Below the pieces are notes generated by a model. It ran no database searches and was not told the DNA's origin. It saw only the letters and a list, made by a program, of their open reading frames with translations. From contig DAIDAP010000015.1 of NCBI GenBank assembly GCA_027310565.1, forward strand, positions 62,001 through 126,000: a stretch of 64,000 nt of DNA, given 5' to 3'. The position numbers and the translations under genes were made by a program. Source of the stretch: Chloroflexota bacterium. GTDB taxonomy: Bacteria; Chloroflexota; Limnocylindria; P2-11E. Positions within the stretch are counted from its first letter, which is position 1; each line of letters begins with the position of its first letter. This document shows positions 8,997-12,774 of the stretch, one piece after another.

Positions 8997-9143
8997 CGTC
9001 AGCCGACAGGCGACGCCCGGGCCGCCGTTCCGCCGCGCGAGACGGTCGTGGCCGGCCGGGCGGGAGGCTTCCTCGAGGCGCAGGCGGCCCTCTCCGCGCT
9101 CGCGGGCGCCGGGGTGTGACACCAAACGTCCTTGGATTCCCGC

Positions 9144-9171
9144 TTGACAACGCGCCCCCGGGGTGCAAAAT
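9144..9171 (+). promoter_or_regulatory. Promoter of the dcw cluster
   Basis: TTGACA (9144-9149), a 16-base spacer and CAAAAT (9166-9171). This is the best sigma-70-type -35 in the window. Transcription would start near 9178, directly at the MraZ operator. GGATTCCCG lies just upstream at 9134-9142. Confidence 0.75.
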
Positions 9172-9180
9172 GCCCAAGGC

Positions 9181-9205
9181 GTGGTGATTAGTGGGGAACG
9201 GTGGG
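9181..9205 (+). promoter_or_regulatory. MraZ operator with three repeats
   Basis: GTGGT (9181-9185), GTGGG (9191-9195) and GTGGG (9201-9205) recur with an exact 10-base period. This matches the known MraZ box of GTGGG direct repeats separated by 5 bases. The site overlaps the predicted transcription start and leader, consistent with MraZ repressing its own operon. Confidence 0.88.
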
Positions 9206-9233
9206 GCACCGCTCTCCAGGACGGGAAGGGCAG

Positions 9234-9665
9234 TTGGAGAGCTACTTCGCGGGCGAATTTGCCCACTCGCTGGACGAGAAGGGGCGCCTCGCCATCCCGG
9301 CCAAGCTCCGCGGCCGCTTCAAGGAAGGGGCGGTCGTGACGCGTTGGATCGGGGAGTGCCTCGCCGTCTTCCCGGCGCCCGAGTGGGCCGCGATCAACAC
9401 CGACATCGCCAAGCGGCCGCGGACCGACCCGGCCGCGACCCGCTTCCGGCATTTCCTTCTCGCGGGCGCGCACGAGGCCGACCCTGATGCCCAGGGACGT
9501 CTCACGATCCCGGCGCACCTCCGGGAGTACGCGCACCTCACGAGCGAAGCCGTCGTCATCGGCAACTCGGATCACCTCGAGGTCTGGGAGCCGGGACGCT
9601 GGCACGCCGAGCTCGCGCGCGTCCAGAACGACATCGCGGGCGACCTCAAGGACCTCGGGGTTTGA
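9234..9665 (+). CDS. mraZ: MraZ transcriptional regulator of the dcw cluster
   Basis: SpoVT/AbrB-like regulator, 143 residues, that in other bacteria binds GTGGG repeats upstream of its own operon. Two repeated domains are visible: FAGEFAHSLDEKGRLAIPAKLRG at the N-terminus and DAQGRLTIPAHLREYA near the middle. The TTG at 9234 is preferred over the GTG at 9201 because the protein then starts like other MraZ proteins, GGGAAGGG lies just upstream, and the earlier GTG is part of the operator. It heads the division cluster. Confidence 0.9.
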   Translation: MESYFAGEFAHSLDEKGRLAIPAKLRGRFKEGAVVTRWIGECLAVFPAPEWAAINTDIAKRPRTDPAATRFRHFLLAGAHEADPDAQGRLTIPAHLREYAHLTSEAVVIGNSDHLEVWEPGRWHAELARVQNDIAGDLKDLGV

Positions 9666-9667
9666 GT

Positions 9668-10641
9668 ATGAAGCTCTTGCCGGGGGGTCCTCGGGGGGCG
9701 AAGCCCCCCGGCTCCTTCATGAGCCGGTTCTGCTGGCCGAAGTACTCGCCGAGCTTGATCCCCGCGAAGGTGGCCGCTTCCTCGATGGCACGGTCGGTGG
9801 GGGAGGTCATGCGCAAGCGATCCTCGACCGCACCGCGCCCTCCGGCCGCCTCCTCGGTCTCGACGTCGACCCCGCCGCCCTCGCCGAGGCCGGGCGGGTC
9901 CTCGCGCGGTTCGGTGCGCGCGCCGTCCTCGTCCGCGCCAATTTCGCGGTTTGCGACGTCGTGGCCCGCCAGCACGGCTTCGACCCGGTCGACGGCGTCC
10001 TCCTCGACCTCGGGCTCTCATCGCTCCAGCTCGCCGACGCGCAGCGAGGCTTCAGCTTTCGCGCGGAAGGCCCGCTGGACATGCGTGCCGACCCGGACCT
10101 TGGCGTCACGGCGGCCGACATCGTGAACAGCTGGGACGAGCGCGACCTGCGCCGGGTGCTGGCCGAGTTCGGCGAGGAGCCGGAGGCCGCGCGGGTCGCG
10201 GCGGCGATCGTGCGCCGCCGGTCCCGCGAGCCGTTCATGACCGCCGACGACCTCGGCCGCTTCGTGCACGGCGTGAAGCGCCGGCGCACGCGCGGCGTCG
10301 ATGCCGCGACGCGTGTCTTCCAGGCGCTGCGCATCGCGGTGAACGACGAGCTGGCGAGCCTCGACCGCGGCCTCGCTGCCGCGCTTGGGATCCTGCGTCC
10401 CGGTGGCCGCCTGGCGGTCATCTCGTTCCACTCGCTCGAGGACCGCTCCGTGAAGCGATTCATGGCGCGGGAGTCGCGCGACTGCATCTGTCCTCCCCAC
10501 CTCCCCACCTGCGTCTGCGGGCACCGCGCGGGTCTGCGTGTCGTTACCCGGCGTCCGCTTCGTGCGGACTCGGCGGAGGTCGCACGCAACCCGCGCGCCC
10601 GCAGCGCAGCCCTCCGCGTCGCGGAGAAGATCGGCTCGTGA
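9668..10641 (+). CDS. rsmH: 16S rRNA (cytosine-N4) methyltransferase RsmH, start frame anomalous
   Basis: RsmH methylates C1402 (E. coli numbering) of 16S rRNA. HEPVLLAEVLAEL, DGTVGGGGHA (SAM loop), GLDVDPAAL, DLGLSSLQL, ISFHSLEDRSVKRFM and the NPRARSAALRV end are all present. No ATG, GTG or TTG lies in this frame between the mraZ stop and HEPVLL; the only in-frame start is ATG 9487, deep inside mraZ. An ATG at 9668 is 1 base out of frame and would join it through a -1 shift, or through one extra C, in the CCCCCC run at 9704-9709. The coordinates use that reading. The gene is certain; its start is not. Confidence 0.85.
9680..9711 (+). other. GC hairpin with two competing G tracts at the mraZ-rsmH junction
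   Basis: CGGGGGGC (9692-9699), GAA loop, GCCCCCCG (9703-9710) forms an 8-bp stem. A second tract CCGGGGGG at 9680-9687 can pair with the same C tract, so two exclusive stems exist. There is no T tract, so it is not an ordinary terminator. It lies exactly where rsmH loses its frame. Confidence 0.7.
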
Positions 10642-11033
10642 TCGCGTCGCAGGCCGTGCGCGCGGCGCCGCGGCGCCGCGCGGCGCTCCCACGTCAGCCG
10701 CACGCCGCACGGCCGGTGCGCCGCCGGGCCGCGGCGGGCTCGGTGACGTGGGAGGTGCGCACGTTCGTCGCGGTGAGCGCCGCGATCGCCTTCGTGTTCC
10801 TCCTCGCGATGCTCTACCTCTCGCAGGCCACCGCGGTATCGACCGCCGGGTACGAGGTCCAGCGGCTCGGGGCCGTCCGCGACGAGTTGCGCCGGCAGAA
10901 CGCGCTGCTCGAGGTCGAGAGCGCCCGCCTCGACGCGCCGGCGCGCATCGAGGCCGAGGCGAAGCGGATCGGGCTGGTCCGGGTGTCGACGATCCCGGTC
11001 GTGCGCATCGAGGCGGTCGCGGCGAAGCGTTAG
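10638..11033 (+). CDS. ftsL: FtsL-like cell division protein
   Basis: Bitopic membrane protein of 131 residues: a basic N-terminus rich in Arg and Ala, one membrane span FVAVSAAIAFVFLLAMLYLS near 50-69, then an extracellular coiled-coil-prone segment (VQRLGAVRDELRRQNALLEVES). This is the FtsL/DivIC architecture; with FtsQ-type and DivIC-type proteins it recruits FtsW and FtsI to the septum. It overlaps rsmH as GTGA and precedes the transpeptidase gene, the usual ftsL place. FtsL proteins diverge strongly, so the call relies on position and topology. Confidence 0.85.
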   Translation: MIASQAVRAAPRRRAALPRQPHAARPVRRRAAAGSVTWEVRTFVAVSAAIAFVFLLAMLYLSQATAVSTAGYEVQRLGAVRDELRRQNALLEVESARLDAPARIEAEAKRIGLVRVSTIPVVRIEAVAAKR

Positions 11034-11091
11034 GGCGCGGGCGGGGTGTTGCTGGGGAGCGAGCACCTCGACCAGGACGGGAGGAGGAAGC

Positions 11092-12774
11092 GTGACCGAG
11101 ACGGTCTCCCCGGCGCGGCTCCGCGTCCTCTTCGCGTTCTTCGCCAGCGCGATGCTCCTCGTCTCCCTGCGCGTCGGGTACTGGCAGACGATCGGCCGTG
11201 CGGCTCTGCTCGAGGGCGCGACCGATCAGGTCACGAGCGAGCTGGTGCTGGGAGCGCAGCGCGGGAACATCTACGACCGTACGGGCGCGATCCTCGCGAC
11301 GACCGTCCAGCTCCGCTCGCTCTACGCGATCCCCTCCCGCATCGCCGACCGCGCCGCCGCCGCGGCGGCGCTCGCGCCGCTCCTCGGCACGTCCTCGGAC
11401 ACCCTGCGCGCCGCGCTCGACTCGGGCGCGGAGTGGCTGTACCTGCGTCGCCGCCTCCCCGAGGAGACGGCGCGCGCGGTCGAGGCGCTCGGCATCGGGG
11501 GCCTGGGCTTCGAGATGGAGCCGAAGCGGCTCTACCCGGGCGACACGATCGCGGCGCAGGCGCTCGGGTTCGTGAACGACGACGGCGTGGGCCAGAACGG
11601 CGTCGAGGGCGCGTACGACGAAGCGCTCCGCGGCGCGCCCGGCAGCCTCGTCGTGGAGCGCGACCCCCAGAACCGCGAGCTCGCCATCGGGCTGCGCACC
11701 GCCGTCGCGCCCCGCGACGGCGCCGACCTCACGCTCACCCTCGACCTGGTCATCCAGACGTCCGTGGAGCGGGCGCTGCGGGCCGCGATCGAGAAGGAGC
11801 GCGCCACCGGCGGGTCCGCGGTCGTGCTCGATCCTCGCGACGGCGCGATCCTCGCGCTCGCGTCGTTCCCGACGTACGACCCCGCGAACGTCGCGACCGC
11901 GGACCCGGAGTCCCTGCGGAACCGCGCCGTGTCGTGGACCTACGAGCCGGGATCGACGATGAAGGCGATCACGATCGCCGCGGCGATCGACCAGCGTGCC
12001 GTGACACCCGAGACGGCGTACGACGACAAGGGCTACGCGATCATCGGCGGCCGGCGGCTGAACAACGCGCTCGGCAAGGCGTACGGGCGGACCACCGTGA
12101 CGCAGGTCCTCGAGCGCTCGGCGAACGCCGGCGCGGTCTTCGTCGCGCAGCAGCTCGGGGCGGAGCGGCTGCGCGCCTACCTCGACGCGTTCGGGTTCGG
12201 CCGGCGCAGCGGCGTCGATCTCGCGGCCGAGGCGAGCGGCTCGGTCCGGCCGCTCGCCGAGTGGTACCCGGTCGACCTCGGCACGATCGCGTACGGGCAG
12301 GGCGTCGCGGTGACACCGCTCCAGCTCGCGGCGGCGTACGCCGCGATCGCCAACGGCGGCACGCTGTACCAGCCGTACGTCGTGGCGACGCGGCGCGATG
12401 CGGACGGGGAGCACCGCATCGCGCCCGTCGCGTCGGGACGTCCGATCTCGCCGGACACCGCCGCGACGGTGCGGCAGATGCTCGTCTCGACGGTCGACGA
12501 CGGGATCGCGAAGGGCGCGTCGCTTCCCGGTTTCAGCGTCGCGGGCAAGACCGGGACCGCGCAGATCCCGAGCGCGGACGGCAGCTACGTCAGCGACGAG
12601 TACATCTCGTCGTTCGCCGGCTTCGCGCCCGCGAGCGACCCGCGGTTCGTCGCCGTGATCGTGCTCGAGCGTCCGCAGTCCAAGCTCTACGGGACCGTGA
12701 GCGCGATGTCGGCCTTCCGCGCCATCGCCGCCGACGTGCTGCGCGAGGAGCGCGTGCAGCCGGACCGCGGGTGA
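11092..12774 (+). CDS. ftsI: Septal peptidoglycan transpeptidase FtsI (class B PBP)
   Basis: Class B penicillin-binding protein of 560 residues that cross-links septal peptidoglycan. One N-terminal membrane anchor (VLFAFFASAMLLVSLRVGYW) is followed by the dimerisation domain (RGNIYDRTGAILA) and the transpeptidase domain: SxxK as S288-TMK in EPGSTMKAIT, SxN as SAN near 345, and KTGT near 482. No PASTA domains are present. The GTG start has AGGAGG nearby. murE normally lies between this gene and murF, but the gap is only 19 bases and holds no gene. Confidence 0.93.
   Translation: MTETVSPARLRVLFAFFASAMLLVSLRVGYWQTIGRAALLEGATDQVTSELVLGAQRGNIYDRTGAILATTVQLRSLYAIPSRIADRAAAAAALAPLLGTSSDTLRAALDSGAEWLYLRRRLPEETARAVEALGIGGLGFEMEPKRLYPGDTIAAQALGFVNDDGVGQNGVEGAYDEALRGAPGSLVVERDPQNRELAIGLRTAVAPRDGADLTLTLDLVIQTSVERALRAAIEKERATGGSAVVLDPRDGAILALASFPTYDPANVATADPESLRNRAVSWTYEPGSTMKAITIAAAIDQRAVTPETAYDDKGYAIIGGRRLNNALGKAYGRTTVTQVLERSANAGAVFVAQQLGAERLRAYLDAFGFGRRSGVDLAAEASGSVRPLAEWYPVDLGTIAYGQGVAVTPLQLAAAYAAIANGGTLYQPYVVATRRDADGEHRIAPVASGRPISPDTAATVRQMLVSTVDDGIAKGASLPGFSVAGKTGTAQIPSADGSYVSDEYISSFAGFAPASDPRFVAVIVLERPQSKLYGTVSAMSAFRAIAADVLREERVQPDRG

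Follow-up and report, generated by a model that had tools for sequence, protein, structure and literature searches.

An order-wide frame break between a start codon at the mraZ stop and the reading frame of rsmH in Chloroflexota

Taken as a whole, the comparative evidence presented here indicates that throughout one order of Chloroflexota the start codon at the end of mraZ is separated from the reading frame of rsmH by a frame break which is far beyond chance, ancient and selected. This judgement follows from a wrong-frame start that is kept in 28 of 28 genomes, from spacer lengths that are fixed modulo three, and from neighbouring genes and outgroups that are mostly in frame. The reading that we prefer, and to which we give a probability of roughly one half, is that ribosomes would reinitiate at an ATG or GTG (RTG) in this broken frame and would then enter RsmH through a -1 (or +2) shift at or before its first conserved residue, a His.

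The mraZ-rsmH junction in the window and across the order

In the window (the whole stretch of 64,000 nucleotides that was analysed) mraZ occupies positions 9234-9665 of the forward strand, opening with TTG and ending in DLGV-TGA (stop 9663-9665), with the C-terminal end in the rest of the order being mostly LGI. The RsmH reading frame follows on the same strand, from the CAT of HEPVLL at 9718 to the TGA at 10639-10641. Both identities are secure: mraZ matches Pfam MraZ (4.2e-34) and scores over the cut-off of NCBIfam TIGR00242, and RsmH matches the equivalog TIGR00006 (9.3e-93, 311 bits against a curated cut-off of 154.3) and Pfam PF01795 (2.9e-100, 336.1 against a cut-off of 27), and aligns with 3tka and 1m6y from the His through to the end. 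The window's genome (G000, a bin of 2.8 Mb) holds a single rsmH copy. Just upstream of mraZ, at 9181-9209, lie GTGGT/GTGGGG repeats with a 10-nt spacing, which we take to resemble the MraZ operator motif and regard as a candidate for it.

The initial annotation had stated that ATG, GTG and TTG are all absent from the RsmH frame between the mraZ stop and HEPVLL and that the ATG at 9668 lies one frame off RsmH, and both statements are borne out directly by the window sequence. From 9664 up to 9718 the RsmH frame reads GAG TAT GAA GCT CTT GCC GGG GGG TCC TCG GGG GGC GAA GCC CCC CGG CTC CTT, and the closest canonical start upstream in this frame is an ATG at 9487, 77 codons before the His and within mraZ. 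The putative rsmH initiation codon, the ATG at 9668-9670 of the forward strand, sits two bases past the mraZ stop and off the RsmH frame, so that a -1 shift would be needed to reach RsmH from there. We place the frame change in the 52-nt leader that runs from the mraZ stop up to the His codon (9666-9717, forward strand) or at the His codon itself, where CATGAG contains a second wrong-frame ATG (9719-9721, forward strand) that is preceded by a GGAGG-like sequence in many relatives. A ribosome that did not shift would meet a dead-end open frame of 152 codons and then a TGA (9668-10126, forward strand).

The class is probably Limnocylindria, to judge from its small-genome sister group f5. All 29 available genomes of the order carry rsmH and the junction is comparable in 28, with G023 left out of all junction counts because its rsmH start is off the contig. 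Those order genomes seen by name are all metagenome assemblies, and the near relatives are 'Chloroflexi bacterium' assemblies with titles that suggest lakes, groundwater, soil cores and other sources. The spacer between the mraZ stop and the His codon measures 1 modulo 3 in every one of the 28, and it comes in 12 different lengths (4, 7, 13, 16, 19, 22, 34, 37, 43, 46, 49 and 52 nt). On a tree of MraZ and RsmH, in which 13 of 28 inner branches are well supported, at least 16 changes of spacer length are needed, all of them multiples of three, and the phase is never altered. With indels free to take any length, the phase would be kept with a nominal chance of (1/3)^16, a value that is indicative only in view of relatedness and tree error, since nominal probabilities overstate the evidence when sequences are related.

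The start codons themselves tell the same story. We counted every ATG, GTG and TTG in the interval that opens four bases before the mraZ stop ends and closes at the His codon. A start stands in the RsmH frame in 1/28 genomes (a TTG in L006) and in the mraZ frame also in 1/28, while the wrong (RTG) frame has an ATG or GTG in 28/28, close to the mraZ stop or to the His codon. In 25 of the 28 an ATG or GTG stands at offset -4, -1 or +2 from the mraZ stop; L014, L016 and L024 have no RTG of this frame upstream of the His, and their wrong-frame ATG lies solely within CATGAG/CATGAA. An ATG or GTG wholly before the His, at offsets -1 to 8, occurs in the RTG frame in 24/28, in the RsmH frame in 0/28 and in the mraZ frame in 1/28, and shuffled spacers gave a mean of 5.0 such wrong-frame starts with a maximum of 13, so that none of 5000 shuffles reached the observed 24/28. 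The identity or position of the RTG has changed at least 13 times on the tree and never out of its frame. The His codon is CAT in 22/28, though 75% of the His codons within the gene bodies are CAC, and with CAT the second wrong-frame ATG is kept. Across the order's junctions there is a GGAGG consensus at -8 to -4; mraZ ends in TAG (15 genomes), TGA (12) or TAA (1), and the codon preceding this stop is ATC, ATT, ATA or GTT.

Other genes of the same genomes behave differently. An in-frame start was present in 25/25 ftsI and 27/28 mraZ genes (the other being CTG), and in 11/15 ftsL genes, with three CTG and one run of N; ftsI and ftsL were counted where contig and alignment reached, in 25 and 15 of the 28. 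By the corresponding test, from 20 codons before the His to codon 4, rsmH has a start in 11/28, ten of these being scattered inside mraZ. Among class outgroups 35/40 rsmH genes start in frame within 15 codons, the remaining five having H-x-P-V-M with an in-frame GTG-ATG at codons 3-4, and among other named bacteria 45/48 have an in-frame start within 20 codons. In the f5 outgroup (5/5 of those fetched) an ATG within TGATG/TAATG, at an apparent LGF-type mraZ end, is in frame with RsmH, and because of this frame agreement the mraZ-coupled start of rsmH looks ancestral on the sequences, the phase being what appears to have changed in this order. The junctions studied here thus resemble TGATG/TAATG coupling in that the start overlaps or adjoins the upstream stop, with an RTG within a few bases of the mraZ stop in 25/28; they differ from it in that the coupled start is one frame off rsmH in 28/28, and the conserved frame transition that marks programmed frameshifting is present in all 28 genomes. 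A separate observation concerns CTG, which takes the place of the TTG or GTG start of relatives in the mraZ of L114 and in the ftsL of L003, L004 and L005, so that this lineage may also start genes with CTG.

Which frame is read, and rival explanations

From the His onward the RsmH frame is conserved, with His, Pro and Val each present in 28/28 and third positions variable. Before the His, codon statistics trained on mraZ and rsmH and applied to the 18 spacers of at least 16 nt (155 codons per frame) gave lnL values of -644.0 for the RTG frame, -672.1 for the RsmH frame and -696.5 for the mraZ frame, and GC3 of the spacer was 0.77, 0.58 and 0.65, respectively. Stops are found in 0/186 spacer codons of the RTG frame, 0/214 of the RsmH frame and 10/214 of the mraZ frame, this last excess being partly due to the A after ATG, and both the RTG and RsmH frames are open through the spacer in all 28. 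Composition leans towards translation in the RTG frame up to the His without pinpointing the shift. Leader substitutions between close relatives have no codon periodicity in either frame, by a hand count with too few changes to decide.

The first rsmH codons show no excess of synonymous conservation (0.98-1.0). In the same stretch, 9718-9772, we observe T- or A-ending codons that are otherwise rare, such as GTT in 23/28 and GTA in 18/28. A real protein encoded in the RTG frame and overlapping rsmH was considered and rejected, as there is no synonymous constraint on RsmH over the dead-end frame, and the end point of the RTG frame seems to follow conserved RsmH residues. A downstream start was rejected as well, because the first canonical starts of the RsmH frame, at codons 25-81 in 20 genomes or a GTG at codon 5 in eight, lie beyond or inside conserved sequence. 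No unusual tRNAs were seen among the 30 of 48 tRNA-family matches inspected, all of which looked ordinary.

By eye, the junctions share no heptamer, homopolymer, structure or invariant segment beyond the His-Glu-Pro codons that could serve as a conserved slippery site. The initial annotation had proposed a slippery site in the window, with CCCCCC at 9704-9709 forming the 3' arm of a hairpin. The pairing part of this proposal holds: the C run pairs with G9693-9698 in a minimum-energy fold of 7 bp, or 8 when C9692-G9710 is added. Its role as a slippery element does not, and we set aside both the hairpin and the C run as a common site, since few relatives have a comparable hairpin by eye (L006, L008, L009 and L116, with none in the other 23 of 27) and since its core is a dispersed repeat. 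The segment 9683-9711 is a palindromic sequence with the consensus GGGGGTYCTCGGGGGGCGMAGCCCCCCGG, present in four copies in the window's genome, the other three being in L209, L211 and L212 near position 1501. The shortest spacers, of 4-7 nt, have no room for a hairpin, and the G6/G6/C6 structure of the window (9680-9711, forward strand) is probably a later insertion that also kept the phase rather than a shift signal. What survives of the proposed frameshift is a frame change somewhere between the ATG and HEPVLL, which stays the most economical reading, and the suggested tie of rsmH expression to mraZ agrees with an RTG at or beside the mraZ stop. Elsewhere in the gene, the rsmH of L009 and of L022 have apparent GC-rich in-frame inserts.

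Several other explanations have to be weighed against this. That the break is a homopolymer error of assembly or sequencing, the other possibility raised at the outset, could draw on the G6, G6 and C6 runs in the window, but none of the 27 relatives compared restores the frame, and the 52-nt spacer is in phase with these relatives, which mostly do not have such runs; the chance of such an error is practically negligible. Another alternative has a +1 shift occur where mraZ ends, around GGG ATC T-stop and in the manner of prfB, so that RsmH would be made solely as an MraZ-RsmH fusion and the RTG would be incidental. RsmH is indeed +1 to mraZ in 28/28 with spacer changes in multiples of three, its frame of the spacer is free of stops, and the fusion would cover L014, L016 and L024 with their absence of an upstream RTG. 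We nevertheless consider it unlikely: it leaves the wrong-frame RTG of 28/28 genomes unexplained, the ending LG-[I/F/V]-stop also occurs in outgroups with in-frame rsmH starts and is hence not a shift cassette, and the leader codon statistics disfavour the RsmH frame. In place of the CUU-UGA and SD-like stimulator of a prfB-like +1 shift, the mraZ stop is preceded by ATC, ATT, ATA or GTT, which provide no shared CUU-U-like cassette.

Initiation could instead be non-canonical, in the RsmH frame near the His and guided by the GGAGG-like sequence, with the open RTG frame acting as a decoy. The GGAGG consensus at -8 to -4, the apparent use of CTG as a start in the mraZ of L114 and the ftsL of L003-L005, and an influence of RsmH on start-codon choice reported in PMC13317604 are all in its favour. 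We regard it as rather unlikely, given that no near-cognate RsmH-frame codon is shared (the short spacer of L017 is TCT GAG CGT GCG CAC), that GGAGG is absent from several junctions by eye (L017, L018 and L019), and that the keeping of the RTG in one frame goes unexplained. On this reading low RsmH would loosen start-codon choice and so yield more RsmH, in the manner of IF3 and the AUU start of infC. A start inside mraZ is very improbable. Most genomes do have an RsmH-frame ATG 66-82 codons before the His, about 180-194 nt ahead of the last base of the mraZ stop, with an open frame that would add an extension of 66-82 residues; against this, L022 and L014 have the RsmH frame closed 11 and 38 codons ahead of the His, L019 and L011 have no such ATG, and a dual-coding signal is lacking, with synonymous variation over the last 64 mraZ codons of 1.06 against 0.95 before.

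A possible initiation-linked shift and self-regulation

Reinitiation at the RTG followed by a shift therefore remains our preferred reading, and its steps might be as follows. In the ancestor of the order rsmH would have moved by one base (modulo 3) between the mraZ-coupled start and HEPVLL, and selection would have kept the break. Ribosomes finishing mraZ would reinitiate at the RTG, and a fraction of them would shift by -1 (the same as +2) no later than the His codon and so make RsmH; unshifted ribosomes would produce an out-of-frame peptide ending 121-146 codons into rsmH. We infer the shift step itself, because no common slippery site was found. The shift would probably be tied to initiation or to the first steps of elongation, and in L017 and L018 it would have to occur on or right after initiation because only GTG-CG precedes the CAC. 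Speaking against this reading, L014, L016 and L024 would need it on the initiator itself, and fMet-tRNA is unable to re-pair one base back.

By analogy with prfB and infC, the arrangement may let RsmH set its own level. This suggestion comes from the activity of the enzyme, since RsmH methylates C1402 of 16S rRNA, a base that touches the mRNA at the P-site codon. The gene for IF3, infC, has an autoregulated AUU start, and it resembles rsmH in that its start is irregular and its product guards the choice of start codons; infC is however read in frame from a non-canonical codon, whereas rsmH has a canonical codon that is out of frame. PMC13317604 describes impaired GUG and UUG starts and raised AUU starts upon loss of MraW/RsmH, and PMC13245932 describes reduced UGA readthrough and +1 frameshifting, with both citing Kimura and Suzuki 2010. 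The prfB gene of release factor 2 is similar: it too encodes a factor of translation fidelity, ribosomes that begin at its start must change frame to read it, the break is conserved, and self-regulation would follow (PMC13245932 and PMC5009743). It differs in that the prfB shift is +1, lies within a single gene at the shifty stop CUU-UGA and comes with a conserved cassette, whereas in rsmH the offset is -1/+2, falls between the coupled start and the gene body, and has no conserved cassette. With dnaX and the IS elements that use an internal Shine-Dalgarno sequence, rsmH would share the -1 direction and, in many junctions, the GGAGG-like sequence; unlike them its junctions share no X_XXZ_ZZN motif, the shift would fall in the first codons, and the shifted product alone is the one of interest. 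We found no prior report of a frame break between mraZ and rsmH in the open-access PMC literature, and the accessible part of the GeneTack survey (PMC3711429) puts a cluster called 'Ribosomal RNA methyltransferase' under translational coupling, rsmH not being named there.

Near its 3' end rsmH also contains two blocks that are specific to the order, at 10489-10514 (26 nt) and 10585-10607 (23 nt) of the forward strand, the second being predicted to pair with the sequence just 3' of the first. Both are invariant, synonymous sites included, in the 26 genomes compared, a count made without the truncated L024 (G009) and L135 (G012). A 32-mer around the first block occurs in 28/29 genomes of the order (27 exact copies and one that differs at a single position, with G012 truncated) and in 0/148 other genomes of the class that were searched. 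The predicted long stem, joining the 3' flank of the first block with the second, has 36 consensus pairs including neighbours, mostly invariant, and its apical hairpin shows some compensatory change and also non-standard pairs. Single-sequence folding gave z values of -2.8 in the sense and -3.1 in the antisense direction, and Rfam had no match at E up to 10 across 9100-11100. On these predictions the two blocks look like an unrecognised structured RNA element. Complementarity between the element and the junction was at chance level (mean z -0.02 in 27 genomes, against mononucleotide shuffles). The element, which may or may not belong with the frame break, shares one clade with it, a single evolutionary event. 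It is conceivable, and in our estimation quite improbable, that rsmH senses its own product: ribosomes unmethylated at C1402 would grip the P-site codon less and slip at the rsmH initiation codon, the only site at which a slip gives RsmH, with the element at 10489-10607 forming part of the circuit.

Implications

A near-universal gene of the division cluster thus appears, order-wide, to be without a start in its own frame and with a conserved one in the wrong frame. One practical consequence is that automatic gene prediction may set rsmH in the wrong place or cut it short in these genomes. If a frame change does take place at initiation it would be an unusual form of recoding. As RsmH acts on the ribosome at the site of the start codon, the role of C1402 methylation in the choice of frame and start would then become directly testable.
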